NCBI GenBank assembly: GCA_021646415.1
Contig: SOEU01000002.1
Location: 1-64,000, forward strand
Reading direction: 5' to 3'
Source of the DNA: Candidatus Brocadia sp.
GTDB lineage: Bacteria > Planctomycetota > Brocadiia > Brocadiales > Brocadiaceae
Length of the DNA stretch: 64,000 nt
Positions 4,570 through 25,611 of this stretch are shown piece by piece. Every line of letters begins with the position of its first letter. Within the stretch, counting starts at the first letter, position 1. Below the pieces are notes generated by a model. It did not search any database. It worked only from the letters and a program-made list of their open reading frames with translations, and was not told where the DNA came from. The translations under genes were made by a program, and so were the position numbers.

Positions 4570-5126
4570 ATGAATAACACAATGGACGAGTTGTGCGTGA
4601 ACACCATCCGCACTCTGTCGATGGATGCCGTGCAACAGGCAAACTCCGGCCACCCGGGAACACCGATGGCGCTGGCTCCGGTGGTCTATTGTCTGTGGCA
4701 ACGTTTTTTACGCTTCGATCCCGGCCATCCAATCTGGCCCAACCGTGACCGTTTCGCGTTGTCGGCAGGACATGCTTCTATGCTGCTCTATGCCATGCTG
4801 CACTTGACCAGCGTGAAAGCGGTCAATCCCGACTATGAAACGCTCGGACATTTATCCGTAACGCTGGAGGATATTAAGCGCTTACGGCGCGCCGAACAAA
4901 CAGGATACGAGCGCGGCGCATGGGGAACCGTTGGGCAAGGAAGAAATTAAGCTGGCCAAACGCCATTACGGCTGGCCGGAAGATGCTGAGTTCCTCGTCC
5001 CCAAAGGGGTGTGTGAGCATTTCCAGGCGGGCATCGGCGCCGCTGAAAGAATTGCAGAAGAAGTTCGGATTTATTCCAGAAAATATCATAGTGGCAGCCA
5101 GGGAGCAGATCGCTAAAGCGAGGTAA
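4570..5126 (+). pseudogene. tkt: Transketolase remnant with internal deletions
   Basis: The first 105 or so residues are a normal transketolase N-terminus, including the [13 protein letters not shown] thiamine-diphosphate region and [16 protein letters not shown]. At about 4915 the frame jumps to a piece reading [19 protein letters not shown], which belongs near the middle of transketolase. At about 5037 it jumps again to the extreme C-terminus (APLKELQKKFGFIPEN..). The three pieces lie in three different frames and total about 185 codons against roughly 670 expected, so at least two internal deletions have occurred. The remnant ends 3 bp before the RpiB-Tal-Pgi gene, so the original order was tkt followed by that fusion. 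It cannot encode active transketolase. Confidence 0.88.
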
Positions 5127-5129
5127 TCA

Positions 5130-8100
5130 ATGCGCATCGTGATAGGTTCAGATCATGCCGGATTCGAGCTGAAGGAGGCGGTGAAAGCCTTTTTGGTCGA
5201 GGAGAACCGCGATGTCCTTGATGTGGGTACCTACAGCAAAGATCCCGTGGACTATCCGGACTATGCTGAAGCTATCGGCACAGCCCTGCGCGAACACCGG
5301 GCCGAACGCGGCATCCTCCTCTGCGGCAGCGGCGTCGGAGCATCGATGGCCGCGAACAGGATTCCCGGTATTCGCGCCGGCCTCTGCCATGACACCTACT
5401 CGGCACACCAGGGCGTGGAGCATGATGGCATGAACGTGCTGGTGCTCGGAGGTCGTGTCGTCGGCATTGAACTCGCCCGCGAGCTGATTCGCGCGTTCTT
5501 AAACGCAAGCTTCACCGGTGAGGGACGTCATCTGCGGCGGCTCGCCAAGATGACGGCACTGGAGAACCGGCTGCGCGCGTTGCAGGTCTTCGGCCAGTCG
5601 GTTTGGCTCGATTACATACGCCGCAGTTTAATCACCAGTGGTGAGCTGCGCCGACTGATTGACGAAGATGGCCTGCGGGGCGTGATTTCTAATCCAGCGA
5701 CTTTCGAAAAGGCCATCGCCGGGAGTTCCGATTACAAGGAGATTCTTGAGGCGCCGGAGGCGCGGACGACGGATGCGAAGACGCTCTATGAAAAAATCGC
5801 AGTCCGCGATATTCAGGACGCTGCCGATGCGCTGCGCCCCGTGTACGAGGAGACGGTAATGCGTGACGGATACGTTAGTCTCGAAGTCTCGCCGTTGCTC
5901 GCACATGACACAGCGGGTACGATGGAAGAAGCCCGGCGGTTATGGCAAGCGGTGAGGCGCGATAATCTGATGATCAAAATTCCGGCTACGCCCCCTGGCA
6001 TTCCTGCCATCCATCAACTCATCAGCGAAGGCATCAATGTCAATGTAACGTTGCTCTTCGCACACGATATTTACGAGCAGGTGGCGGAAGCATATATTGC
6101 GGGGTTGGAGAAATTTGCCGCCAGCGGCGGCGACCTGAAGCGGGTGGCCAGCGTTGCCAGTTTCTTTATCAGCAGAATCGATAGCGCGATCGACGGGCTT
6201 ATTACGGTACGGTTGCAGGGAACAACAAATGCGAGAGAGGAAAAACTTCTGCGCGGCCTTACTGGTAAGGTGGCGATCGCCAGCGCCAAGCTCACCTACC
6301 TGCGTTATCAGGAACTCTTCAGCGGACAGCGATGGCAGACACTGGCAGGACAGGGTGCTCAAACGCAACGCTTGCTATGGGCCAGCACGGGTACGAAGAA
6401 TCCCCGCTACCGCGACGTTGTCTACATAGAGGAACTCATTGGGCCCGATACCGTTAATGCGATTCCTCCCACGACCTTCGAGGCGTTTCGTGACCACGGG
6501 CGGCCACGCTCAAGCCTCATGGAAGATATCGAGTCCTCTTACGACACCATGACCGCGCTCGCCGAAGCCGGGATTTCAATGAAAGACGTGACCGATACAT
6601 TGCTTGACGAGGGCGTACGGCTTTTCTCCGGCGCCTTCGGAAAGCTGCTGAAGGCAGTGGAGAAGCAAAGCAAGGAAGCGGGGGCTGGAATAATCAACTT
6701 GCCGACTTACCATCTACCCGAGCCCCTGACCGGTGCGGTGCAAGATTCATTGGCAGAGTGGCGTGCGCAGGGCAAGGTCAGAAGGCTGTGGGGCCGGGAT
6801 GCGTCGCTGTGGACCGGCAAGGATGAGGCGCAATGGCTTGGCTGGCTCGGCATTGCAAACGATCAGTTGGCCCATATCCAGCGTTTAACCCATATTACCG
6901 AAATGGCAAAGAGCGCGGGTTTCTCGCATGTCCTGTTGCTGGGTATGGGAGGGGCGAGTCTCACTCCCGAAGTGATAAAGATGACCTTTGGCACGATCCG
7001 CGGTTTTCCGGAACTTTATGTTCTCGATTCCACTGAGCCGGCCCAGGTGAAGGCTTTTGAGAACAAAGTCGATCTGAAACACACGCTCTTCATCGTATCG
7101 AGCAAATCGGGCTCGACGCTTGAGCCCAACATTTTAAAACAGTATTTCTTTGACCGTGTCGCGCAGATCGTTGGCCTGAAAGAGGCCGGCAGTCGTTTCA
7201 TCGCCATCACCGATCCCGGTACAAAGATCCAGCAGATTGCTGAAATCGATGGCTTTCGGCATGTCTTTTTCGGCTGGGCGAATATCGGCGGGCGCTACTC
7301 GGCGCTCTCTGATTTCGGGCTGGTCCCCGCAGCTATCATGGGTGTGGATGTTGAGAAGTTTTTGGATCGGGCTGAAAAGATGGTCTATGCCTGCATGCCA
7401 TCGGTTCCGGTTGAAGAAAACCCTGGTGTCATGCTCGGTACCATCCTCGGAATAGCTGCGAATCAATTCGGTCACAATAAGGTGACGATCATTACTTCGC
7501 CGGGCATTTACGGTCTTGGTGCCTGGATCGAGCAGATGATCGCCGCATCAACAGGCAAAGAGGGCAAGGGGTTGATTCCCATCGATCGCGAAGCGCTCGG
7601 CAAGCCTGAGGTGTATGCTCGTGACCGCATATTTGTCTATCTGAGATTACGTTCGGCTCCGGACACCGCTCAGGACAAATCCATGGAATGGCTTGAACAA
7701 GCCAGTTACCCGGTCGTGCGTATTGAGGTAAACGATCCTTACGATCTGGGTGAGGAATTTTTCCGCTGGGAAATCGCAGCAGCAACGGCCGGTTCCATCC
7801 TTGGCATTAACCCGTTTAATCAGCCGGATGTAGAAGCGAGCAAGACCTCGACGCGGAAGCTGACCGCCGAGTATGAAAGAAACGGGACGTTGCCCAAAGA
7901 GATTCCGATTTTCACCGCAGAGAGGGTTCAGCTATTCACGGATGAGAAAAATGCGGGCGCATTAACGAAGATGGTAAGCGATCACCCGACGCTGGCGGGA
8001 TATCTCAAGGCACACCTGAACCGTCTCAGCACCGGTGACTATTTTGCGCTTCTCGCCTATATAGAGATGAACGAGGCGCACGAGCGGGTATTACAGACAA

Positions 8101-8420
8101 TACGACATGGCGTTCGCGATACCAGGCGCGTAGCTACGTGTCTGCAATTCGGACCGCGCTTCCTCCACTCAACAGGACAGGTTTACAAGGGCGGGCCAAA
8201 CACGGGCGTATTCCTGCAGATCACATGCAATGACGCTGTCGATCTTCCCGTGCCGGGACAAAAGTACACCTTTGGTGTGGTCAAGGCGGCCCAGGCCCGA
8301 GGTGATTTTCAGGTCCTGCTGGAGCGGGGCCGCCGCGCCTTACGCGTTCATCTTGAAGAAGATGTCGGTGCCGGACTTGCTACGCTGCAAAAAGCCATTA
8401 CTGAGGCGCTCGTGTTGTAG
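5130..8420 (+). CDS. RpiB-transaldolase-phosphoglucose isomerase trifunctional fusion
   Basis: A 1096-residue cytosolic protein made of three sugar-phosphate enzymes. Residues 1-145 are ribose-5-phosphate isomerase B ([10 protein letters not shown] start, catalytic Cys65 in LLCGSGVG, His87 and His98). Residues about 146-515 are transaldolase, with [10 protein letters not shown] at 188-197 and the Schiff-base lysine expected at Lys283 in MIKIPAT. Residues about 525-1096 are a phosphoglucose isomerase-like domain with the sugar-binding [10 protein letters not shown] at 657-666 and [11 protein letters not shown] further on. Tal-Pgi two-domain proteins are known; an N-terminal RpiB makes this copy unusual. 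It would link ribose-5-P/ribulose-5-P, sedoheptulose-7-P/fructose-6-P and fructose-6-P/glucose-6-P. The gene follows the tkt remnant by 3 bp. No inactivating lesion is seen. Confidence 0.92.
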
Positions 8421-9695: not shown

Positions 9696-9803
9696 GACGG
9701 ATTGGTCGCGCGTTTGATCCATGTGTTTGTGAAAACCACGTCCGATCAAGTTCTCGAACTCGGCAAGATTGCCGCGATTACCGAAACAGACAAGCAGGCA
9801 TAG
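9696..9803 (+). other. Open 3' tail of an unidentified gene
   Basis: A reading frame without a start codon encodes about 35 residues (..LIHVFVKTTSDQVLELGKI..) and stops 2 bp before the next gene. It reads like the end of a real protein whose upstream part was deleted up to element B. I do not recognise it. Confidence 0.3.
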
Positions 9804-9805
9804 TC

Positions 9806-12100
9806 ATGATCAAAGCCAAACCAGAAATAATCCGGCGCCTGAAATCCGACATCCCGTTGTTTGCCGGATTTACGGAGGAACTGTTGGACAAACTCGTGAA
9901 CAGCTCGCGTGTCGTGTCATTCGAGCCGAACGAGGCCATCGTGCATTACGGCGCGGAGGCTACTCACTTCGGCGTGATTTTGGCCGGTACGGTAACGGCA
10001 TCGGTAATTGCCGACGGTGGCACGCGGCTGGAGTTAGGACGGCTCGAAGCGGGCAGCACATTTGGAGAACTGGCGTTGATGACGGGCGAGAAGACGCTGG
10101 CCGAACTCATCGCCGAGACGCGGTGCGAGGTGCTGTTCATCCCGGTCTCGGTGTTTCAATCGATCATCGTTGCCGAACCGCAGGCCGTGCAGCACATTTC
10201 ACGGACAATTTCCGAACGGTTCAAGACGCTGATGGCCGACCCGGCGAAAGCCGCCGCGGCGCTTCGGCAAGGCGACGATCCCTACGGTTTCAAGCTCAGG
10301 GGAGAACGGCCGGAACACATTCTCGTAATTAACTGCGGTTCGTCGTCGCTGAAATACACTTACTACGACACCGAAGACGCCCGGCACGTGCGTGGCCAGG
10401 TCGAGCGAATCGGGCTGGACGGCACGCGCCATGTTCATCGCGGTTCAAAGGGTGAAGTAACGCGCGGGTTGCCCAGATCCGGATTTGCCGAGGCAATGGC
10501 GGCGATGGTGGAGGCATTGCGGGACGAACCTGAAGTTAGCGTTGTCGCGCATCGTGTGGTGCATGGCGGAGAGCGCTTCACTGAAGCGACGCTTATCACG
10601 GACGACGTGCTTGCGCGGCTCGATGCGCTGAGTCCGCTCGCACCGTTGCACAATCCTGTCAATATCGCCGGCATCCGAGAGATGCGCCGACTGTTGCCGG
10701 CTGTGCCGCACGTAGCGGTGTTCGACACCGCATTTCATCATACGTTGCCGTCATATGCGTATCTGTACGGACTGCCGTACGAGTACTACGAGAAGCAGGG
10801 CGTGCGCCGGTACGGTTTTCATGGCATGTCGCACTCGTACGTCTGCCTCCGTGCGGCGCAGTTCATGGGGCGGAGACCAAACGAACTCGAAATCGTAAGC
10901 TGTCATCTCGGCAATGGTTCTTCATTGTGTGCCGTGGACCATGGACGCTCGGTGGATACCACGATGGGGTTTACGCCAGTTGAGGGGCTGATTATGGGGA
11001 CGCGCTGCGGGGATGTGGATGCGGGTGTGATCACCTTTCTCGAACGGACAGCGGGCCTGACCGTCCAGCAGATTGATGAACTGATCAACAAAAAGAGCGG
11101 CCTGCTCGGTCTGTCCGGCATTTCCAGCGACATGCGTGAAATCCTCAAGGCATCCGAGGCAGGCGAACCGCGCGCGTTGGTGGCGCTGAAGACTTACTGC
11201 TATCGCGTCCGCAAATATATTGGTGCATACGTCGCCGCCATGGGCGGATTGGATGCCGTAGTTTTTACCGGAGGCGTCGGACAAGGCAGTGCCATGGTGC
11301 GTGCGCTTGCCTTGCAGGGGTTGGATTGCATGGGCATCCGTCTCGATGAACAACTCAACCGCGACGCACGCGGGTTCGATGAAGTATGCCGCATCTCAAC
11401 GGACGACTCGAAGGTGACGGTGCTGGTCGTACCGACCGACGAAGAACGGATGATGGCACGCGAGGCGTTGCGGGCGTTAAGCCGGTCACACGTCACGGGC
11501 GTGCTCAAAGCGAGGCGGCAAGAACCAATCATGATCGAGGTGCTAGCCCATCACATTCACCTTACCCAGGAACACGTCGAGGCGTTGTTCGGCAAGGGAC
11601 ATCAGCTCACACCGCACACAGACCTTTCGCAGCCCGGTCAGTTCGCCTGCAAAGAGCATGTCACCCTCGTCGGGCCAAAAGGCCGCATCGAACGGGTCCG
11701 CGTATTCGGCCCCGTTCGCAAGTTTACGCAGGTCGAAATCGCGATGACCGAACAATTCAAACTCGGCGTGCATCCACCGATTCGCGAGAGCGGCGACATC
11801 AAGGACACGCCTGGCTGCACGCTTGAAGGCACGGCCGGCAGTGTGAAACTGGAGCGAGGCGTCATCTGCGCCTGGCGACATATACACATGACACCCGATG
11901 ATGCGCTCCGCTATGGCGTACGCGACAAGTCGGTCGTGTGCGTGCGCATGGCCGGCGACCGTGAGTTGGAGTTCGGCGACGTGTTGGTTCGGGTTTCGCC
12001 GGGTTACCGGCTTGCGATGCACATTGACACCGACGAAGCCAACGCCACCAACATCCAGACCGGAGCGCAGGGATTCATCGCGGAAATTCAGAGCCAATGA
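9806..12100 (+). CDS. cNMP-binding domain / acetate kinase / PduL phosphotransacylase fusion
   Basis: A 764-residue protein. Residues 1-145 are a Crp/cNMP-type beta-roll (GTVTASVIADGG, STFGELALMTGEK) with no helix-turn-helix. Residues about 171-560 are acetate kinase: NCGSSSLK at 176-183, HRVVHGGERF, catalytic Asp307 in FDTAFH, GFHGMSHSYV, HLGNGSS and FTGGVG. Residues about 575-764 are a PduL-type phosphotransacylase with metal-ligand motifs HHIHL (582-586), RHIHM (691-695) and His739. It would convert acetyl-phosphate to acetate plus ATP, or to acetyl-CoA. The sensory domain is odd: where Crp-like domains have Arg-Ser/Thr for the cyclic phosphate, this has Thr98-Leu99, so cAMP binding is doubtful. 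It follows element B and an unidentified gene tail. Confidence 0.92.
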   Translation: MIKAKPEIIRRLKSDIPLFAGFTEELLDKLVNSSRVVSFEPNEAIVHYGAEATHFGVILAGTVTASVIADGGTRLELGRLEAGSTFGELALMTGEKTLAELIAETRCEVLFIPVSVFQSIIVAEPQAVQHISRTISERFKTLMADPAKAAAALRQGDDPYGFKLRGERPEHILVINCGSSSLKYTYYDTEDARHVRGQVERIGLDGTRHVHRGSKGEVTRGLPRSGFAEAMAAMVEALRDEPEVSVVAHRVVHGGERFTEATLITDDVLARLDALSPLAPLHNPVNIAGIREMRRLLPAVPHVAVFDTAFHHTLPSYAYLYGLPYEYYEKQGVRRYGFHGMSHSYVCLRAAQFMGRRPNELEIVSCHLGNGSSLCAVDHGRSVDTTMGFTPVEGLIMGTRCGDVDAGVITFLERTAGLTVQQIDELINKKSGLLGLSGISSDMREILKASEAGEPRALVALKTYCYRVRKYIGAYVAAMGGLDAVVFTGGVGQGSAMVRALALQGLDCMGIRLDEQLNRDARGFDEVCRISTDDSKVTVLVVPTDEERMMAREALRALSRSHVTGVLKARRQEPIMIEVLAHHIHLTQEHVEALFGKGHQLTPHTDLSQPGQFACKEHVTLVGPKGRIERVRVFGPVRKFTQVEIAMTEQFKLGVHPPIRESGDIKDTPGCTLEGTAGSVKLERGVICAWRHIHMTPDDALRYGVRDKSVVCVRMAGDRELEFGDVLVRVSPGYRLAMHIDTDEANATNIQTGAQGFIAEIQSQ

Positions 12101-12114
12101 AGAAAGGATACGTC

Positions 12115-12192
12115 ATGAAAGCGCAAATCCGTGAGACATCCCTGTCAGGGTTTAAAACCCTGACAGGGTTAATCGTTTTAGGAATATCCTAA
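12115..12192 (+). other. Short reading frame opened by a lost gene and closed through a palindromic repeat
   Basis: An ATG with an AAAGGA site 7 nt upstream begins MKAQIRE, then the frame runs straight into the CCCTGTCAGGG palindrome (peptide SLSGFKTLTG) and stops after 25 codons. The proper start signal suggests the beginning of a gene that once followed the AckA fusion, now cut by the repeat. It is unlikely to make a useful protein. Confidence 0.35.
12140..12168. repeat. Palindromic repeat CCCTGTCAGGG..CCCTGACAGGG
   Basis: A 29-bp inverted repeat with 11-bp arms (CCCTGTCAGGG / CCCTGACAGGG) around TTTAAAA. Further copies lie at 14691-14722, 42302-42331, 45684-45714 and 57399-57432, with partial copies inside the elements at 39236-39377 and 54998-55119. 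It sits between two convergent genes here. Confidence 0.85.
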
Positions 12193-12200
12193 ACCTCAAG

Positions 12201-14276
12201 TTAGTCGTTAGATGTATTTCTCCATAGTACGACCACAGAGTGCGGTGCGGCCCGATAGGGATGATCTGGAATCAGCGGTGATGTTTGCCATTCGGAGATA
12301 TCATTTGGGGAATCGAGGGCAGTGTCGATCCATCGATGCCAGGGGTATTTTCCCCCGTTCTCTGCCGGCGGCAGTTCAAAGTCGAGCGGCTCCCAGTATG
12401 CATTCAAGATCATGTGGAGGAGCATCCTTTGTGTTTTTATCTCCGCAGTGAATGCTATGCTGTGCGAATGATGCCCCCAGTCCGGCTGACCAAGTTTTGT
12501 CCCGTGCCATAATTTATTGGCGTCACGAAGCAACTGGTTCAGGGTTACGCGCCGGTATTCGTGCTCCACCTCCCTCAGTCTCCTCCGTGCACTAAGCAAT
12601 TTCACAAACCGGTGCAGACCGGCATGCTTTGTGATCAGAGTCCAGTCGAACCAACTGATCTCGTTGTCTAAGCAATAGGCGTTATTATTGCCATTCTGGG
12701 TACGCCGTACTTCGTCGCCCATCAGAATCATGGGTACACCAAGCGACAGCATCGTGACAGTCAAAAAGTTTTTTATCTGGCGGTTTCGCAGTTTTTCCAC
12801 CGCCGGATCATCCGCCGGTCCCTCGACGCCACAGTTCCAGCTCAGATTGTCATTCGTGCCGTCACGATTGTCTTCCCCGTTGGCTTCGTTGTGTTTGTTG
12901 TTATAGGAAACGAGGTCATTGAGCGTAAAACCATCGTGACAGGTCACAAAGTTGACACTTTGTTCCGCCTCGCGGTTCTCATGACCATATATTTGTGGAC
13001 TCCCCATCAGCCGGTCGGCAAAGTGCTTTATGGAACCATCCTGGCCGAGAAAGAAGCTGCGAACATCATCGCGAAATCGTCCATTCCACTCTTTCCAGCT
13101 ATCTCCAACAAAAGTGCCCACCTGATACAGGCCGGCAGCATCCCATGCCTCGGCGATGATCTTTGTGCCTGCAAGAACCGGATCCGACTCAATATCCCAG
13201 AGCACCGGCGGGTTTGGCATCAGGTGTCCTGATATGTCGCGTGCGAGGATCGATGCGAGGTCAAAGCGGAAGCCGTCTACGTGCATCTCTTCGACCCAAT
13301 AGCGGAGACTATCCATAATCATGCGGCGCACGATAGGATGGTTGGCGTTGAGTGTGTTTCCCGTGCCGCTGTAATTGGCGTAACGAGAACAATCTTGTTC
13401 GAGGATGTAGTATATGCTGTTGTCCAATCCACGGAAACTCAGCGTTGGCCCGGACTGGTCGCCTTCGGCGGTATGATTGAACACGACATCGAGAATGACC
13501 TCAATGTCTGCCCGGTGCAGCGCCTTGACCATATCGCGAAATTCGTCCACGGGGCCGAGCGGATCCTGCCGCGAACTGTATGCCTGATGCGGGGCAAAGA
13601 AAGATATCGGTGCATAGCCCCAGTAGTTGACAAGTCCCGGCGGGCAATCCTGTGCATCGAACTGGAAAACCGGCAGCAATTCGACCGCGGTAACACCGAG
13701 CTCCTGAAGATACGGAATCTTCTCAATCAACCCGGCGTAAGTGCCGCGTGCCTTTTCGGAGACGCCTGAACTGGGGTGTCGGGTAAAACCTCGTACGTGC
13801 ATCTCATAAATAATCGTGCGCGATGACGGCCTTTTAATCGGCGTGTCGCCTTCCCAATTATACTTACGAGTATCGACCACTAAGCTTTTCATCGCCACAG
13901 CGGCGTTATTGCCCTCTCGGCTGGCAGCGCTACGACTGTAATTCCTGGGAACAACTACACCGCGGCCATAGGGATCGAGAAGAACTTTGGATGGATCGAA
14001 TCTCATCCCCTTGTCGGGTTCATACGGTCCGCGTACCCGATAACCGTAAAGTTGTCCGTCCCGTACGCCTGGTACAAAGACATGCCAGTAATGATAGGTT
14101 CGCCCGGCCCAGGGATCAATTTGAATAATGCGTGCCGGCATGTCGTTGTCCTCGTGGTCAAAGAACAACAGATCTACACCTGTGGCGTTACGGGAAAAAA
14201 CGCTGAAGTTAACGCCGTCTTCGTAAACGGTTGCGCCGAGTGGCGAGCTTCGACCCTTTGTGTCAACATGAGTCAT
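12201..14276 (-). CDS. glgX: Glycogen debranching enzyme (GlgX type)
   Basis: A 691-residue GH13 enzyme that hydrolyses alpha-1,6 branches of phosphorylase-trimmed glycogen. An N-terminal CBM48-like domain (about 12-130, SPLGATVYEDGVNFSVFS) precedes the catalytic barrel with all four GH13 regions: DVVFNH (263-268), GFRFDL with nucleophile Asp339, AEAWD with acid/base Glu376, and CHDG with Asp448. The length matches GlgX/TreX. I chose the ATG at 14276 because GGAG lies about 5 nt upstream and homology begins there; an upstream in-frame start 44 codons earlier would translate AT-rich promoter DNA. It is divergent from the riboswitch and glgP genes, forming a glycogen-breakdown locus. Confidence 0.93.
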   Translation of the reverse strand: MTHVDTKGRSSPLGATVYEDGVNFSVFSRNATGVDLLFFDHEDNDMPARIIQIDPWAGRTYHYWHVFVPGVRDGQLYGYRVRGPYEPDKGMRFDPSKVLLDPYGRGVVVPRNYSRSAASREGNNAAVAMKSLVVDTRKYNWEGDTPIKRPSSRTIIYEMHVRGFTRHPSSGVSEKARGTYAGLIEKIPYLQELGVTAVELLPVFQFDAQDCPPGLVNYWGYAPISFFAPHQAYSSRQDPLGPVDEFRDMVKALHRADIEVILDVVFNHTAEGDQSGPTLSFRGLDNSIYYILEQDCSRYANYSGTGNTLNANHPIVRRMIMDSLRYWVEEMHVDGFRFDLASILARDISGHLMPNPPVLWDIESDPVLAGTKIIAEAWDAAGLYQVGTFVGDSWKEWNGRFRDDVRSFFLGQDGSIKHFADRLMGSPQIYGHENREAEQSVNFVTCHDGFTLNDLVSYNNKHNEANGEDNRDGTNDNLSWNCGVEGPADDPAVEKLRNRQIKNFLTVTMLSLGVPMILMGDEVRRTQNGNNNAYCLDNEISWFDWTLITKHAGLHRFVKLLSARRRLREVEHEYRRVTLNQLLRDANKLWHGTKLGQPDWGHHSHSIAFTAEIKTQRMLLHMILNAYWEPLDFELPPAENGGKYPWHRWIDTALDSPNDISEWQTSPLIPDHPYRAAPHSVVVLWRNTSND

Positions 14277-14450
14277 GTGTTCTCCTTTCTCCGGTATGCC
14301 ATGGCTCTTAGGTACCATATTTCCTTCGAAAGTATAAGGAAAAGCCTTATAGTGACATTTTTTTATTATACAATTTTCAATAGTGATTGCAAACCCTCTT
14401 TGACACATTATTTCTGCGAGAATATATTCTTATGTACTGTTATTTTTTGC

Positions 14451-14823: not shown

Positions 14824-15423
14824 ATGAGTGAAGAGCTTCCTATCGTTTATCTCGCCAGACATGGTGAAACGGCTTGGAGCCTGACAGGGCAGTATACGGG
14901 TCTTACTGATTTGCCGCTGACTGAGCGCGGCGAGCGAAATGCGCGCCGGCTTGGGGAACGTCTGAAAGGTATAACTTTTGCCAGGGTGTTTACCAGTCCG
15001 CTGCAGCGGGCTGTGCGGACATGTGAACTGGCCGGATTTGGGGCTGTGGCTGAGGTTGATCAGGACCTTGTCGAATGGAACTATGGCGAATATGAAGGTC
15101 ACCTCTCCAGCGAGATACATGCCCAACACCCGGATTGGCAGCTCTTCCGTGACGGCTGTCCCGGAGGAGAATCACCAGGTCAGGTTACAGCGCGGGCCGA
15201 TCGGGTAATAGGCAGAGTGCGCAAGGTTAATGGGAATGTGCTGGTTTTTTCGAGCGGGCATTTTATCAGAGTCCTTACGGTCCGATGGCTCGGACTTGAG
15301 CCATCGGTTTCCTGTGCGTATTTCCTGCTAAGCACCGCGAGCCTGAGCGCACTGGGTTATAAACATGATCTTTCACATCCGGTGGTACGGCTGTGGAATG
15401 ATGATCATCACGTCGGTACGTAA
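14824..15423 (+). CDS. Histidine phosphatase (phosphoglycerate mutase-like)
   Basis: A 199-residue member of the histidine phosphatase superfamily. The catalytic RHGET motif is at residues 13-17 (LARHGETAWS), followed by GQYTGLTDLPLTERG, FTSPLQRAVRTCELAG, the acid-base region DLVEWNYGEYEG and the second catalytic histidine in FSSGHFIRVL near residue 146. Its size and the EWNYGEYEG segment fit small broad-specificity phosphatases rather than a glycolytic mutase, so a sugar-phosphate phosphatase role is plausible but not proven. GGAG lies 9-10 nt upstream of the ATG. It is the first gene after the riboswitch and terminator, and glgP follows 58 bp downstream. Confidence 0.87.
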   Translation: MSEELPIVYLARHGETAWSLTGQYTGLTDLPLTERGERNARRLGERLKGITFARVFTSPLQRAVRTCELAGFGAVAEVDQDLVEWNYGEYEGHLSSEIHAQHPDWQLFRDGCPGGESPGQVTARADRVIGRVRKVNGNVLVFSSGHFIRVLTVRWLGLEPSVSCAYFLLSTASLSALGYKHDLSHPVVRLWNDDHHVGT

Positions 15424-15481
15424 TATATCCGGTTGCGGGTGTCCAGTGGTAAAAAAAGGTAACTTCAGAAAGGATATTGAG

Positions 15482-18007
15482 ATGAGTACAAAAAGTACGG
15501 CAGCGTCCACAAAGGTGTCGGCGGGGCAGATTGCCAAATCGGAACTCCTCAAACAATATGGGTGCGGGCCGGTTCAATTTTCAGGTACTGACAATGCGTT
15601 CTATGAGCGGCACCTTATCTTTGATAACATTATAGACCTGAAGACTTCCGGCGCACGGGAACAATTTGAAGCCTTTGCCCGTTCGGTGCGTGATATTCTT
15701 TCGCAACGATGGATACGCACGGAGGATACGTATCATCGTGTGAATCCGAAGCGCATCTATTATCTTTCCATGGAATTTCTCATTGGCCGTTCTCTGGCCA
15801 ACAATGTTACGAATCTCCTGCTCGATAATCTTGCCAAACAAGCCGTCGAGCAGAAGCATATTGATTTGCCCGGCTTACTCGAACAGGAACCTGATGCAGG
15901 ACTGGGGAATGGAGGTCTTGGACGCCTGGCGGCGTGTTTCCTCGATTCTATGGCCACGATGCAGTTGCCGGCCATGGGCTACGGCCTTCGTTATGAGTAC
16001 GGCATTTTCAAGCAGTCCATCAGGGATGGCTGGCAGTACGAACAGCCGGACAACTGGCTTCGCCGGCCCGACCCATGGGAAGTCGCCCGGCCGCAGGATA
16101 TGGTTGAGGTCAGGCTGAACTGCTCGTTTGAGATACGTGGCGGTTCGCTGCGTGCGATTGCCGGTCAGCCTTCCAGGCTGCTCGGTATCCCGTTTGACCG
16201 CCCCGTAGTAGGATATGGCGGCAAGACGATCAATACGCTACGGCTCTGGGCTGCTGCTGCCCCGGATTATTTTGATTTTCAGCGATTTAGCAGCGGCGAC
16301 TTTGTCGGCGCCCTGGCTGAGACGCTGACGGCCGAATCGCTCACACGGGTACTTTATCCCGACGACACCACCAGTATGGGACAGGGGTTGCGTTTTATAC
16401 AGGAGTATTTTCTTGTTGCCTGCTCGCTGGCTGATCTTGTGCGTCGATTCCAGCGCAGCAATGCCGATTGGAATACGCTTCCCGAGAAAGTTGCCATACA
16501 GCTTAACGATACGCATCCCTCGATGGCGGTACCTGAACTGATGCGGATTCTGCTTGATGAGGTGCATCTCGGATGGGACCAGGCGTGGAATATCACCCAA
16601 AAGACCCTGGCGTATACGAACCACACGCTGTTGCCGGAAGCCCTTGAAAAATGGCCGCTTGTGTGGTTTGAAATGTTGTTTCCTCGCCTGCTGGAAATCA
16701 TTCTTGAAATAAATCGCCGCCTGCTCGATAACGTTCGTGCTCAATTTGCCGGCGATGAGGAACGTATTGCCCGTATGAGTATTGTTGAGGAAGGCAGCGT
16801 GCGCAAAATTCGCATGGCCAATCTGGCCATAGTCGGCTCGCATAGCACCAACGGTGTGGCCGCGATTCACTCCAGGCTCTTGCGCACGATGACGGTTAAG
16901 GATTTTGCCGAAATGTTTCCAGAGCGTTTCAATAACAAAACGAACGGCGTTACGCCGCGGCGGTGGCTACTGCTGGCTAATCCGATACTGGCCAATACGA
17001 TTACCAGGGCTATCGGCAATGGCTGGATCACTAACCTTGATCAACTGGTCAAACTAAGACCGCTTGCCGATGACAAGGGTTTTTGCGATGCCTTCCTCAA
17101 GGCCAAACGTGCGGCCAAGGCGCAGTTTGCCGACTGGCTCAAATCGACCAGCGGTCAGACGGTGGATCCGGACAGCATCTTTGATTGCCAGGTCAAGCGT
17201 ATCCACGAATACAAACGGCAATTGCTCAATGCGCTGCGCATCGTGGTACTTTACAACAGGCTGCGCGCAAATCCTGGATTGGACATGGAACCGCGAACGT
17301 TTTTCTTCGCTGGCAAAGCGGCGCCTGCCTACCGCCTGGCAAAGGTCATTATCAAGTTCATTAACAACCTTGCCAGTACCATCGATGGCGACCCTGCGAT
17401 GCGCGGACGACTTAAAGTCCTGTTCCTGCCGGAATATTGCGTTTCACTTGCGGAGCGACTCATACCTGCCAGTGATGTTTCTAACCAAATCTCAACGGCA
17501 GGCTATGAAGCCAGCGGCACGAGCAACATGAAGTTTATGATGAACGGTGCGCTGACAATCGGTACTCGCGACGGCGCGACTATTGAAATGGCAGAGGAGG
17601 CGGGCGAGGAAAACTTTTTCCTGTTTGGTCTGACTGCTCAGCAGGTAGCTGACAGCCGCGGCTGGTACAATCCACACTGGCACTATGATAACGATGCAGA
17701 AACACGAGCTGCTTTGGATTTGATTTTTTCTGACCATTTCAGCCGATATGAGCCGGGCGTTTTTGCGCCGCTGCGCGATACCCTTTTGACCCGGGGTGAC
17801 TATTATATGCATTTGGCGGACCTCAGGTCCTATCTTGAGGCGGATCAGCGGCTGTGTGATTTGTATGCCGACCGTCATGGATGGGCGCGCAAGGCCATTC
17901 TGAATGTGGCTGGTTCAGGAAAATTTTCCAGTGACCGCACGATTGCTGACTATGCCAGTGATATCTGGCAGGTGAAGCCGTGTCCGGTGCTGTGTCCGGT
18001 ACTATAG
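15482..18007 (+). CDS. glgP: Glycogen phosphorylase
   Basis: An 841-residue GT35 phosphorylase that releases glucose-1-phosphate from glycogen or maltodextrin using phosphate. Seen in order: YYLSMEFLIGRSL, the EPDAGLGNGGLGRLAACFLDS glycine loop, IQLNDTHPS, KRIHEYKRQLLN, the FFAGKAAPAY phosphate-binding region and the pyridoxal-phosphate lysine at about residue 684 in GTSNMKFMMNG. Full length for the family. I chose the ATG at 15482, six nt after an AGGATATT stretch; an upstream in-frame start would overlap the previous gene by 59 bp. The C-terminus ends with a short Pro/Cys repeat (CPVLCPVL). Likely co-transcribed with the phosphatase upstream and pgm downstream. Confidence 0.95.
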   Translation: MSTKSTAASTKVSAGQIAKSELLKQYGCGPVQFSGTDNAFYERHLIFDNIIDLKTSGAREQFEAFARSVRDILSQRWIRTEDTYHRVNPKRIYYLSMEFLIGRSLANNVTNLLLDNLAKQAVEQKHIDLPGLLEQEPDAGLGNGGLGRLAACFLDSMATMQLPAMGYGLRYEYGIFKQSIRDGWQYEQPDNWLRRPDPWEVARPQDMVEVRLNCSFEIRGGSLRAIAGQPSRLLGIPFDRPVVGYGGKTINTLRLWAAAAPDYFDFQRFSSGDFVGALAETLTAESLTRVLYPDDTTSMGQGLRFIQEYFLVACSLADLVRRFQRSNADWNTLPEKVAIQLNDTHPSMAVPELMRILLDEVHLGWDQAWNITQKTLAYTNHTLLPEALEKWPLVWFEMLFPRLLEIILEINRRLLDNVRAQFAGDEERIARMSIVEEGSVRKIRMANLAIVGSHSTNGVAAIHSRLLRTMTVKDFAEMFPERFNNKTNGVTPRRWLLLANPILANTITRAIGNGWITNLDQLVKLRPLADDKGFCDAFLKAKRAAKAQFADWLKSTSGQTVDPDSIFDCQVKRIHEYKRQLLNALRIVVLYNRLRANPGLDMEPRTFFFAGKAAPAYRLAKVIIKFINNLASTIDGDPAMRGRLKVLFLPEYCVSLAERLIPASDVSNQISTAGYEASGTSNMKFMMNGALTIGTRDGATIEMAEEAGEENFFLFGLTAQQVADSRGWYNPHWHYDNDAETRAALDLIFSDHFSRYEPGVFAPLRDTLLTRGDYYMHLADLRSYLEADQRLCDLYADRHGWARKAILNVAGSGKFSSDRTIADYASDIWQVKPCPVLCPVL

Positions 18008-18234: not shown

Positions 18235-19893
18235 ATGATTATGTCGACTTCTCCACTTGCAGGCAAGCTGGCGCCGAAGGAGATGCTGGTTGATGTGGCG
18301 CAGCTCATAGAGGAGTATTATAAGCGTCGCCCTGATATGCAGGACCACAGTCAACTGGTCAGTTTTGGCACCAGCGGACATCGAGGGTCGCCACTGAACG
18401 GCACTTTCACCGAGTCACATATTCTGGCTATTACGCAAGCTATCTGTGACTATCGGCACAGTAAAGGTACCGATGGGCTGCTTTACATGGGCAAGGATAC
18501 ACACGCCGTATCCGGGCCGGCACAGCGAACAGCGCTGGAAGTGTTGGCGGCCAACAATGTGGAGGTTGTCATCCAGCAAAATGACGGTGTCACGCCAACG
18601 CCGGTTATTTCATGGGCTATCCTCGTTTACAATCTCAGGCGCAAGGAGCATCTGGCTGACGGTATCGTTGTCACACCGTCACATAATCCGCCTGAGGATG
18701 GAGGGTTTAAGTACAACCCGGCCAATGGCGGCCCGGCTGATACGGATGTGACCAAGTGGATACAAAATCGAGCCAATGATCTACTCCGAAAGAATAACGT
18801 TGATGTAAAACGCGTGCCGTTCACTTCAGCAATCAAAGCCAGGAGTACCCATCAGGAAGATCTAATCCTGCCCTATGTCAATGACCTGCAGAGCGTCATT
18901 GATATGGACGCCATCCGCACGGCCGGCCTCAAGTTGGGCGTTGACCCGCTCGGCGGAGCATCGGGACCCTACTGGGAACGGATCAATTCCATCTATCAAT
19001 TGAACATCACCGTGGTAAATCAGAATGTCGATCCGACTTTCTCGTTTATGACAGTCGATCACGACGGCAGGATACGTATGGACTGCTCAAGTGCCTACGC
19101 GATGACGCGTCTTGTCAGCCTCAAGGATAAATACCGACTTGCCTTTGCCAACGACCCGGATGCAGATCGCCATGGAGTCGTTACGCCATCGGCTGGTTTG
19201 ATGAATCCCAACCATTACTTAGCCGTGGCCATCCGCTATCTGCTCACACATCGCCCCAGCTGGCCTGCGCACGCTGTGGTTGGAAAGACGCTGGTGAGCA
19301 GCAGTATGATAGACCGGGTGGTGCAAAAGCTGGGCCGCAGGCTGTCCGAAGTGCCAGTGGGATTCAAGTGGTTTACACCGGGACTGTTCGATGGCTCATA
19401 CTGCTTTGGCGGCGAAGAAAGCGCCGGCGCAAGCTTTTTGCGACGGGACGGCACGGTATGGACGACCGATAAGGATGGGCCGATTATGGCTCTTCTTGCG
19501 GCCGAGATCACCGCCCGCACTGACAAGGACCCGGGCGAGCATTACAGCGAGCTTACTGCTGAGTTTGGCACACCCTACTACACACGCATCGATGCGCCCG
19601 CTACGCCTGAGCAAAAAGAAAAACTGCAGAGACTGTCGCCAGCCAACGTAAAAGAGTCGAAACTGGCCGGTGAGCCAATTACCGCAAAATTGACATCTGC
19701 ACCCGGCAACGGAGCACCGATCGGCGGCTTAAAGGTCGTTGCCGCCAGCGGCTGGTTCGCGGCACGGCCATCCGGTACCGAGAACATTTATAAAATTTAC
19801 GCAGAGAGCTTTAAGGATCAAATGCATCTGGACATCATTGTAGATGAGGCTCAACAGATTGTGAACGATGCGTTGGGAGTCTCGTCGAAATAG
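18235..19893 (+). CDS. pgm: Phosphoglucomutase (alpha-D-glucose phosphate-specific)
   Basis: A 552-residue enzyme interconverting glucose-1-P and glucose-6-P, matching the E. coli Pgm length. The four active-site elements are present: phosphoserine loop TPSHNPP with Ser149, metal loop NDPDADRHG near residue 307, sugar-specificity loop GGEESAGAS, and phosphate-binding loop [20 protein letters not shown] near residue 44 is the family start motif. The ribosome-binding site is weak; the ATG at 18241 is an equally possible start. It sits between glgP and pgi, 21 bp ahead of the latter, so the three form a direct route from glycogen to fructose-6-P. Confidence 0.94.
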
Positions 19894-19914: not shown

Positions 19915-21558
19915 ATGAATATGACAAGACACATTAAGCCGCTCAGCAAACGTGCGGCATGGAAAGCACTGAACACCCACTACAAAAAAGTTCAATCCCT
20001 GCATCTTCGCACGCTTTTCGCCGACGACCCAAAACGCGGCGAGCGTATGGTCGCCGAGGCAGCAGGCATTTACCTGGATTACTCGAAAAATCGCATTACC
20101 GATGAAACTCTCAAACTCCTTGTTCAATTGGCTGAGGAATCCGGCCTGCGCGAGCAAATTGACGCCATGTTTCGCGGGGAGAAGATAAACATCACGGAGA
20201 ACCGGGCCGTTTTGCATGTGGCACTTCGAGCCCCACGGGGGATAACTATTCTCTCTGATGGCAAAAATGTGGTACCTGAGGTCCATGCAGTACTCGACAA
20301 GATGACTGACTTTTCCAACCGCGTCAGGCAAGGCACATGGAGAGGCCATACGGGGAAATCCATACGTAACATCGTCAATATCGGCATCGGGGGCTCGGAC
20401 CTTGGGCCGGTAATGGCCTATGAGGCGCTCAGGCATTACAGCGACCGCCGCATGACCTTCCGGTTTGTTTCAAACATCGACGGCACTGATTTCGCAGAAG
20501 CAGTTCAAGACCTCGACCCCGAACAGACTCTTTTTATCGTCTCTTCAAAAACATTTACCACATTAGAGACCATGACGAATGCCCAAACCGCCCGTGTGTG
20601 GTTGCTGAAAGGGCTTGATGGAGATGAAAAGGCCATAGCGAAGCACTTTGTCGCTGTTTCGACGAACGAGGCCGAGGTGGCGAAGTTTGGCATCGATACG
20701 GCTAATATGTTCGGATTCTGGGATTGGGTCGGCGGGCGGTATTCGATGGACTCTGCGATCGGCCTTTCGACGATGCTTGCCATCGGTCCGGACAACTTCA
20801 GCGCGATGCTGGACGGATTCCATCAGATGGATGAGCATTTTCGTAACACGCCGTTTGATCGCAACCTGCCTGTGCTTATGGCTTTGCTGACCATCTGGTA
20901 TACCGATTTTTTTGATGCCCATACTATTGCAGTTTTGCCCTACGAGCAGTACCTCAACCGTTTTCCGGCATATCTTCAACAATTGACCATGGAGAGTAAT
21001 GGCAAATATATTACGCTTGATGGAGTCAAGGTTGACTATCAGACCAGCCCGGTCTACTGGGGCGAACCGGGCACCAACGGCCAGCACTCTTTCTATCAGT
21101 TGATTCATCAGGGGACTCGGCTTATTCCCTGTGATTTTATAGCATTCGATACATCGCTTAACCCTCTTGGCCGCCACCACGATCTGTTGATGGCGAATGT
21201 TTTTGCTCAGGCCGAGGCGCTGGCCTTCGGCAAGACGGCGGAACAGGTAAAGGCCGAAGGAACACCGAACTGGCTCGTGCCGCATCGGGTTTTTGAGGGT
21301 AACCGGACGTCGAACATAATCATGGCAGACCGGCTTTCGCCAGAAATACTGGGCAAACTCGTTGCCCTCTATGAACATTGTGTCTTCACCCAGGGTGTTA
21401 TCTGGCAGATTGACTCATTCGACCAGTGGGGTGTCGAACTGGGCAAGGTGCTGGCTCAGCGCATCATCCCCGAACTTGAGAGCAAATCGGAACCTGAGCT
21501 TGCCCATGACAGTTCGACAAACAATCTGATACGTCGCTATCGCAGGAACAAATCATGA
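19915..21558 (+). CDS. pgi: Glucose-6-phosphate isomerase (stand-alone)
   Basis: A 547-residue GPI-family enzyme converting glucose-6-P to fructose-6-P. Signature segments include [18 protein letters not shown] (about 146-163), [15 protein letters not shown] for the sugar phosphate, [13 protein letters not shown] with the catalytic region, MESNGKYI with the catalytic Glu, and the [14 protein letters not shown] histidine motif. It is a full-length classical GPI, distinct from the shorter archaeal/transaldolase-linked Pgi domain in the fusion at 5130-8420, so the island carries two isomerases of different lineage. GGGG lies 7-8 nt before the first ATG; an ATG two codons later (19921) is an alternative start. 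Confidence 0.95.
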
Positions 21559-21940: not shown

Positions 21941-22891
21941 ATGGCGCTTGTTTCATCAAAGAAAATGTTTCAGATGGCTTACAAGAACGGCTACGCCATT
22001 GGCGCGTTCAATGTCAACAATATGGAGATTATTCAGGGTATCATAGCTGCCGTTCGGGAAGAAAAGGCGCCTGTTATTCTCCAGATTTCAAAAGGGGCGC
22101 GTGAATACGCAAGCATAAGTTATCTGAGAGCTATTATTGATGTTGCTGTGAAGGAAAACCCTGATATTCCTGTCTGCATACACCTTGACCACGGCGATAC
22201 CTTTGAACTTTGCAAGCAGTGTATTGATGATGGTTATACTTCCGTCATGATTGACGCCTCCCATTTCCCTTTTGAGGAGAATGTCAGGCTTACCAGGAAA
22301 GTCGTTGAATATGCACACGCCCGCGGAGTGGTCGTTGAGGCCGAATTAGGTCAGCTCGGCGGTATCGAAGAGCATGTTGTCGGCGTAAGCGCTGATGATG
22401 TATTAAAGCACCTGACCGACCCAAACCAGGCTGTCGAGTTTGTTGAAAAGACCGGCTGCGATTCGCTTGCCATTGCCTGTGGTACCAGTCATGGTGCGTA
22501 CAAGTTCAAAACCGAACCGAAAATCGCTTTTGACGTAATTGAGGCTGTCGGCAAAAAGCTTCCCGGTTTTCCGCTGGTGATGCATGGGGCAAGCAGTGTT
22601 CTGCCTGAGTTCAGGGAATTGATCAACAAGTACGGAGGGAAGATGCCTGATGCAATGGGTGTGCCTGAGAGCGCTATCTCCAGGGCGGCAAAAATGGCGG
22701 TCTGCAAGGTCAATATCGATACAGATCTGCGTATGGCGATGACTGCCAGTATACGGCAGGTTTTTGCCGAAAGGCCCGACGAGTTCGACCCTCGCAAGTA
22801 TCTTGGCCCTGCCAGGGAGGCTATTGCGGGCATGGTAAAGCATAAACTCACTGTTTTGTGTTGTGCAGGAAAAGCCGCCGAGTGCTGTTAA
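21941..22891 (+). CDS. fba: Class II fructose-bisphosphate aldolase
   Basis: A 316-residue zinc-dependent aldolase cleaving fructose-1,6-bisphosphate to dihydroxyacetone phosphate and glyceraldehyde-3-P. Motifs: GAFNVNNMEI near residue 21, HLDHGD at 81-86 with a metal-binding His, VEAELGQLGG (131-140) with the conserved Glu, GTSHGAYK, VMHGASSV with another metal His, and the phosphate-binding VNIDTDLRMAMT. The strong AAAGGAG ribosome site supports the start. It ends in an unusual AAECC tail. It lies between pgi and the phosphoketolase gene in the same orientation but with long spacers on both sides, so it may be separately transcribed. Confidence 0.94.
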   Translation: MALVSSKKMFQMAYKNGYAIGAFNVNNMEIIQGIIAAVREEKAPVILQISKGAREYASISYLRAIIDVAVKENPDIPVCIHLDHGDTFELCKQCIDDGYTSVMIDASHFPFEENVRLTRKVVEYAHARGVVVEAELGQLGGIEEHVVGVSADDVLKHLTDPNQAVEFVEKTGCDSLAIACGTSHGAYKFKTEPKIAFDVIEAVGKKLPGFPLVMHGASSVLPEFRELINKYGGKMPDAMGVPESAISRAAKMAVCKVNIDTDLRMAMTASIRQVFAERPDEFDPRKYLGPAREAIAGMVKHKLTVLCCAGKAAECC

Positions 22892-23244: not shown

Positions 23245-25611
23245 ATGGAAAATCCATTAACGAACAAAGAGCTGGAACTGATGAACGCCTATTGGCGGGC
23301 GTGTAATTATCTTTCCGTGGGCATGATCTATCTCAAAGACAACCCTCTGCTCAGGGAGCCCCTGAAGCCGGAGCATGTGAAGCACCGGCTGCTCGGCCAC
23401 TGGGGCGCGAGTCCTGCGCTATCTTTCGTTTGGGTGCATCTCAACCGGATGATCGTCAAGCATGATCTCAACGTGATCTTTGTGGCCGGGCCTGGCCACG
23501 GCGCGCCCGGAGTGCTGGGGCCGGCATATCTCGAAGGCACCTACTCCGAGATCTATCCGGACAAGAGCGAGGATGCGGATGGGATGCAGAAGTTCTTTAA
23601 GCAATTCTCCTTCCCCGGCCATATCGGAAGCCACGTCACTCCGGAAACCCCTGGTTCCATCCACGAGGGCGGAGAACTTGGCTACAGTCTCTCGCACGCT
23701 TACGGCATGGCGCTCGACAACCCGGATCTCATCGTCGCCTGCGTGGTGGGTGACGGCGAGGCGGAAACCGGACCACTCGCTACCGCGTGGCATTCCAACA
23801 AGTTTATCAATCCGGTGCGCGACGGCGCAGTGCTGCCAATCCTGAACCTCAATGGCTATAAGATCGCAAACCCAACGATCCTTGCACGGATTAGCCACGA
23901 GGAGTTGGAAGCATTGTTTGTCGGCTACGGCTACAAGCCCTATTTCGTTGAAGGGAGCGACCCTGCTGAGATGCATAAAAAGATGGCGGTTACGCTGGAA
24001 GAGACAATCGGCGAGATCCGTGCCCAGCAGAAAACGGCACGGGAATCGAATAACCCCTTCCGCCCGCACTGGCCCATGATCGTGCTGCGTTCCCCTAAGG
24101 GCTGGACCGGACCGAAGGAGATAAAAGGACACAAAGTGGAAGGTTTCTGGCGCTCGCATCAGGTGCCCTTTGCCGACGTGCGCGACAATCCGGAGAATTT
24201 AAAGCTTCTGGAAGACTGGATGCGCAGCTACAAGCCCGAGGAACTGTTCGATGCGGGCGGCAAGCTCGCGCCAGAACTCAAGGCTCTGGCGCCCAGGGGG
24301 AATCGGCGCATGAGCGCCAACCCGCATGCCAACGGCGGACTCCTGCGCAAAGAACTCAAGCTTCCTGATTTTCGCAAATACGCTGTAGAAGTGTCTTCCC
24401 GCGGTACAGTGCAATACGAGAACACCAAACCCCTCGGCGAGTACCTGCGCGACGTGATGAAGAACAACATGACAAGCTTCCGCGTCTTTGGCCCGGACGA
24501 GACAGCATCTAACCGGCTCCAGGCTATCTACGAGGTGAGCAAGAAGACCTGGATGGCGGATATGTTGCCGGAGGATGCCGACGGCGGCGAGCTCGCTCGT
24601 GATGGCCGCGTTATGGAGATGCTTTCCGAGCACACACTCATCGGCTGGCTGGAAGGATATCTGCTTACGGGGCGCCACGGATTTTTTCATACCTATGAAG
24701 CCTTTGCCCACGTTATCGATTCCATGTTCAATCAGCACGCCAAATGGCTGGACATCTGCAAAAACCACGTGCCGTGGCGGGCATCGGTCGCTTCCGAGAA
24801 TATCCTGCTGTCGTCCACGGTCTGGCGCCAGGACCACAACGGATTTTCTCATCAGGACCCTGGATTCATTGACCTTGTAACCAACAAGAGCCCGTCGGTC
24901 ACGCGTATCTATCTGCCGCCCGACGCCAATACGCTCTTGGCTGTCGCCGATCACTGCCTGCGCAGCACCGACTATATCAACGTCATCGTTGCCGACAAGC
25001 AGAAGCATCTGCAGTTTACTGCTATAGACGAGGCGATCGTTCACTGCGCCAAAGGCCTCGGTATCTGGGGACGGGCGAGCACTGATGCGGGCGAGGAGCC
25101 GGATGTAGTTTTAGCTTCCTGCGGCGACGTTGCCACCATGGAGGCGTTAGCCGCAGCCGCCATCTTGCGCGAGCGGGTGCCGGATTTGAAGCTGCGCTTC
25201 GTCAACGTGGTGGATCTGTTCAAGCTGCAGCCAGCATCTGAGCATCCGCACGGATCAACGGAGCGCGAGTTCGATAGCCTGTTCACCACGGACAAGCCCA
25301 TCATCTTTAATTTCCACGGCTATCCGTGGCTCATCCATAAGCTCTCGTACCGTTTCAGGGGACATGATAACCTGCACGTGCGTGGTTACAAGGAAAAGGG
25401 CAACATCAATACTCCGCTCGAACTGGCGATGCTGAATGAAACATCACGTTTCCATCTGGTCATCGACATCATTGACCGGGTGCCGAAGCTGCGCACGAAG
25501 GCAGCGCATTTAAAGGAGCAAATGAAGAATGCCATCATAGATAACCTGCGCTACGCGCACGAGCAGGGCACAGACCGGCCGGAGATCGCCAATTGGACCT
25601 GGCCGTATTAG
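23245..25611 (+). CDS. xfp: Phosphoketolase (xylulose-5-P / fructose-6-P)
   Basis: A 788-residue thiamine-diphosphate enzyme that splits xylulose-5-P or fructose-6-P with phosphate to acetyl-phosphate plus glyceraldehyde-3-P or erythrose-4-P. Family features: [45 protein letters not shown], the ThDP motif [11 protein letters not shown], and DDNGFSHQ-like [12 protein letters not shown] in the pyrimidine domain. Length is normal for Xfp. The strong GGGGAGG site confirms the start. Its product acetyl-phosphate is the substrate of the AckA-PduL fusion at 9806-12100. Whether it accepts fructose-6-P, xylulose-5-P or both cannot be told from the sequence. Confidence 0.95.

Follow-up and report, generated by a model that had tools for sequence, protein, structure and literature searches.

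The closest known relatives of the protein analyzed here are two-domain AckA-PduL proteins (annotated as 'acetate/propionate family kinase', ~600 aa; Lewinella, Saprospiraceae, Myxococcota, and Polaromonas), which share with it the order of acetate kinase (AckA) and PduL, ~50% identity and the same catalytic residues, but are devoid of the N-terminal cNMP-binding-fold domain (CNBD) found in the Brocadia fusion. Like the AckAs of M. thermophila (1TUU) and T. maritima (2IIR), the fusion carries a full-length kinase with invariant active-site residues, although here it is embedded between two other domains. The zinc ligands and Arg of the PduL/EutD phosphate propanoyltransferases (PF06130; 5CUO) are also shared, but the PduL of the fusion is joined to AckA and has no microcompartment link. 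As for the N-terminal domain, weak profile matches were obtained to the mycobacterial acetyltransferase Pat (NF058543) and to CRP; Pat likewise joins an N-terminal CNBD to an enzyme, though a different one, and the fusion differs from both in lacking the phosphate-binding Arg. An NCBIfam match at residues 8–138 was to the CNBD-like insert of Family 2B encapsulin, a shell protein and not an enzyme, which has a CNBD fold with a divergent pocket and reportedly binds no cyclic nucleotides (PMC12407261). One of the top fold matches, the regulatory subunit of trypanosomatid PKA, has Thr at the Arg position as the fusion does, but carries a ribose-binding Glu311 where the fusion has Ala90, and that PKA is reported to bind nucleosides (PMC10959531). 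No description of a CNBD-AckA-PduL protein or of an AckA-PduL fusion was found in open-access PMC full text, judged partly by titles and abstracts.

In the 64,000-nt stretch of Candidatus Brocadia DNA analyzed here (the window), an open reading frame that starts with ATG and has no internal stop encodes a 764-aa protein with Pfam matches to cNMP_binding (residues 37–121, E 5.2e-17), Acetate_kinase (residues 172–552, E 2.1e-143, 391 of 392 profile positions covered), and PTAC/PduL (residues 576–750, E 4.4e-76, 175 of 176 profile positions covered), all three far beyond chance. NCBIfam named the same protein both ackA and phosphate propanoyltransferase. The order CNBD, AckA, PduL was kept in homologues down to ~50% identity, so that the single chain of a beta-roll, a complete AckA and a complete PduL, proposed in a sequence-only reading of this DNA, is borne out by the Pfam matches and the conserved architecture. 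The fusion thus places both enzymes of the acetyl-phosphate node and a possible sensor in one chain. A full-length AlphaFold model built with 16 sequences was poor over the PduL region, with pLDDT <50 in stretches.

Table 1. Coordinates of the fusion gene, its domains and the neighboring carbohydrate genes in the window.
Feature	Position	Strand	Basis
RpiB-transaldolase-Pgi fusion, 1096 aa (island)	5130..8420	+	profile matches
CNBD-AckA-PduL fusion gene, 764 aa	9806..12100	+	ORF and Pfam; architecture conserved in homologues
cNMP-binding-fold domain with C-helix, residues 1–141 (Pfam core 37–121)	9806..10228	+	Pfam, predicted fold
Linker, residues 142–169 (DDPYG motif retained in most fusions)	10229..10312	+	fusion alignment
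Acetate kinase domain, residues 172–552	10319..11461	+	Pfam and active-site residues
PduL phosphotransacylase domain, residues 576–750	11531..12055	+	Pfam and zinc ligands
GlgX/isoamylase-like debranching enzyme (island)	12201..14408	-	sequence match
Glycogen/carbohydrate phosphorylase (island)	15365..18007	+	Pfam
Phosphoglucomutase (island)	18235..19893	+	Pfam
Phosphoglucose isomerase (island)	19915..21558	+	Pfam
Class II fructose-bisphosphate aldolase (island)	21941..22891	+	Pfam
Phosphoketolase Xfp	23245..25611	+	profile matches

Both enzyme domains look catalytically complete by their profiles and residues. The AckA domain scored 478 bits with PF00871 (cut-off 22) and 474 bits with TIGR00016 (cut-off 293), and its active-site residues N176, R250, H282, D307, H339, R400, and E546, mapped onto the M. 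thermophila enzyme, were invariant in all 16 fusions. Similarly, the PduL domain scored 255 bits with PF06130 (cut-off 25) and 256.6 bits with NF011652 (cut-off 209), and its two-zinc ligands H583, H585, E644, H692, H694, and H739 as well as the phosphate Arg638 were invariant in the 16 fusions. The protein is the sole AckA and the sole PduL of its own genome (G000, 3.8 Mb, 99.96% complete), in which no Pta was found, that is, the only AckA and the only phosphotransacylase found in this Brocadia. BMC shell genes were absent from the same genome and from 11 of the 12 fusion genomes examined, and in one Planctomycetota genome (G160) the BMC genes adjoined a second PduL. A microcompartment-type PduL was rejected on the absence of BMC genes from the own genome, BMC association being typical but not universal.

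The N-terminal domain scored 62 bits with PF00027 (cut-off 27.5). Modeling of it, which the sequence-only reading had suggested, predicted a CNBD fold for residues 1–157 with pLDDT mostly 80–97, and Foldseek matched this model to PKA, PKG, HCN, and CRP at E ~1e-11, with TbPKAR and TcPKAR among the top matches. When nine residues are counted from the conserved Glu88, as between E200 and R209 of PKA, the position of the Arg that holds the cyclic phosphate (CRP R82, PKA R209) falls on Thr97, followed by Leu98; the pocket had been called atypical before, and the replacement of the Arg-Ser/Thr pair stands, but the earlier numbering as Thr98-Leu99 was off by one. Arg was found at position 97 in 0 of the 16 fusions, which carry T, S, V, M, or L instead, while Glu88 (equivalent to CRP E72 and PKA E200) was invariant and position 100 was acidic (Asp or Glu) in every one. 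Among nine comparison CNBDs from related genomes, a set that is whatever the homology search returned and not a designed sample, seven had Arg at position 97 and none had an acid at position 100. Hence, of the two residues taken to mark a cAMP/cGMP receptor, the Glu is present and the Arg is missing, and the loss of Arg renders standard cAMP/cGMP sensing by the fusion CNBD unlikely, in support of the doubt on a canonical ligand raised earlier.

The selection on each domain was compared by pairwise dN/dS, which was 0.12–0.20 for the CNBD, 0.05–0.08 for AckA, and 0.06–0.15 for PduL. These values indicate that the CNBD is kept by purifying selection, though a looser one than AckA, and its role may be to bind a ligand other than a cNMP or to serve the structure. 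The N-terminal CNBD is a real, selected domain that appears to have departed from canonical cNMP recognition, making the fusion a compact system in which to study CNBDs whose evolution has led away from cyclic nucleotides. Most of its pocket was not deeply conserved across the fusions, and such shallow conservation fits a structural role and a new ligand alike.

A purely structural CNBD, in which a degenerate beta-roll and its helix would set the oligomeric state or hold the enzyme domains without any ligand, has to be taken seriously, although we consider it somewhat unlikely. It agrees with the variable residue that replaces the Arg and with the looser constraint relative to the enzyme domains, and the Family 2B encapsulin insert is a precedent for a CNBD fold without cyclic-nucleotide binding (PMC12407261). 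However, neither Glu88 nor the acidic residue at position 100 varies across ~50% divergence, although the Arg position does, and many two-domain AckA-PduL proteins do without a CNBD. Improbable is a conventional enzyme gated by cAMP or cGMP, with the cyclic nucleotide controlling AckA and PduL: the overall fold, the retained Glu88 and two class III nucleotidyl cyclases encoded in the genome would suit it, but the Arg is replaced in every fusion with an extra acid three residues on, whereas most of the compared CNBDs keep it. A sensor of nucleosides, resembling the PKA regulatory subunit of trypanosomatids, was also considered, as T318 of TbPKAR is the equivalent of Thr97 and the trypanosomatid subunits rank so high among the fold matches; nevertheless, the decisive Glu of TbPKAR (E311, at the PKA A202 position) corresponds to Ala90 here and to Ser in four distant fusions, so this nucleoside signature failed and such a sensor is very improbable.

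Close homologues of the fusion are those of Candidatus Brocadia and Jettenia. Brocadia genomes, among them the complete B. pituitae chromosome AP021856.1, contained full-length homologues of 87–94% identity, and one of 89% was found in another genus of the same family (G018). Further, five Planctomycetota genomes contained the full-length fusion (68% identity in G160, 48–51% in the other four), as did six MAGs at 67–76% identity, labeled Verrucomicrobia, Akkermansiaceae, Chthoniobacterales, Schlesneria, delta, and Flavobacteriales, labels that may be wrong; in a seventh such MAG (L043) the fusion is cut by the contig end. The distribution outside Planctomycetota comes from one scan of genome contigs. 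Plasmid and phage records gave partial AckA or AckA-PduL matches only, none covering 80% of the query, and no near match to the fusion was found in E. coli genomes. That separate genes were joined by an assembly error is refuted, as no evidence in its favor was found and the same three-domain order recurs in independent assemblies, including AP021856.1 and the single-contig G160; the gene is real.

In a tree of the AckA-PduL region (a quick search with SH-aLRT support and no bootstrap), the 16 fusions and one CNBD-less protein (L121) formed one branch with an SH-aLRT of 100, apart from 67 two-domain proteins. A single origin of the fusion followed by lateral spread is the simplest reading. Two-domain AckA-PduL proteins lacking a CNBD occur widely in both Myxococcota and Bacteroidota, and judging from these sequences only the addition of the CNBD is unusual, not the AckA-PduL core. 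The B. carolinensis copy (L008 / L035, near 560–720) is split over two frames near residue 52, which is either a sequencing error or a real frameshift.

The G+C content of the window was mostly 50–60% over ~5–33 kb and mostly 40–48% elsewhere, suggesting that the ~5–33 kb part, which holds the carbohydrate genes of Table 1, is an imported island. The NCBIfam model PRK09533 spans only the Tal-Pgi part of the 1096-aa fusion. A truncated transketolase lies at 4570–4950 (+), of which only residues 6–82 match Transketolase_N, while the Jettenia version (L042) has 687 aa.

Among 16 Brocadiaceae genomes tested, full-length Xfp was present in all eight with AckA and in none of the eight without it, one of the latter having a remnant (two-sided Fisher p=1.6e-4, a value that ignores shared ancestry), and the three-part RpiB-Tal-Pgi fusion occurred in exactly the same eight genomes as AckA and Xfp. 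One genome (G010) has Xfp plus a separate Pta-AckA pair in place of the fusion. In G160 and the Schlesneria MAG (L039), xfp adjoins the fusion gene. However, Xfp was not found in three non-anammox fusion genomes (G350, 56% complete; G265; G091), so the link to Xfp is not general. The co-occurrence in Brocadiaceae suggests that the fusion probably processes phosphoketolase-derived acetyl-phosphate, with Xfp as its likely source, but it may partly reflect joint transfer of island genes that travel together. No phosphoketolase carbon route in anammox bacteria was apparent from the titles and abstracts of open-access papers naming both; the present genes point to such a route in some anammox bacteria, organisms that matter for wastewater nitrogen removal.

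Taken together, we lean toward the fusion being a one-chain AckA/phosphotransacylase fed with acetyl-phosphate by phosphoketolase, whose CNBD most likely tunes activity or assembly on a ligand other than cAMP or cGMP. Glycogen and sugar-phosphate breakdown would supply the co-inherited phosphoketolase branch, which would yield acetyl-phosphate, the gene set resembling a bifid shunt or non-oxidative glycolysis. From acetyl-phosphate, the AckA domain would form acetate and ATP and the PduL domain acetyl-CoA, possibly with channeling within the chain, while in the reverse direction the chain could activate acetate. Both fates of acetyl-phosphate had been assigned to one chain before, and the completeness of both domains agrees with this, with the refinement that the activities may also act one after the other (acetate <-> acetyl-P <-> acetyl-CoA). 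Since the CNBD lacks the cAMP-holding residue, a signal other than cAMP may control this branch point of carbon and energy metabolism. More speculatively, and rather doubtfully, a CNBD with Glu88, the acid at position 100 and no Arg could represent a new sensor subclass, which binds a central metabolite other than a cyclic nucleotide and allosterically sets the split of acetyl-phosphate between ATP plus acetate and acetyl-CoA. Against the favored reading, the Jettenia ecosi protein (L042:10001–11683) is a CNBD-AckA that ends before PduL, and neither PduL nor Pta was found in that genome (L042), indicating that the transacylase is dispensable there.

Two minor features flank the fusion gene. 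Its stop codon is followed, between convergent genes, by the near-perfect inverted repeat ccctgtcagggtttaaaaccctgacaggg (~12141–12170), which by eye is terminator-like. On the 5′ side, a short open stretch at 9696–9800 (+) ends just before the fusion ATG and is ~50% similar in L033 and L127, and it is possibly a gene remnant or a leader.
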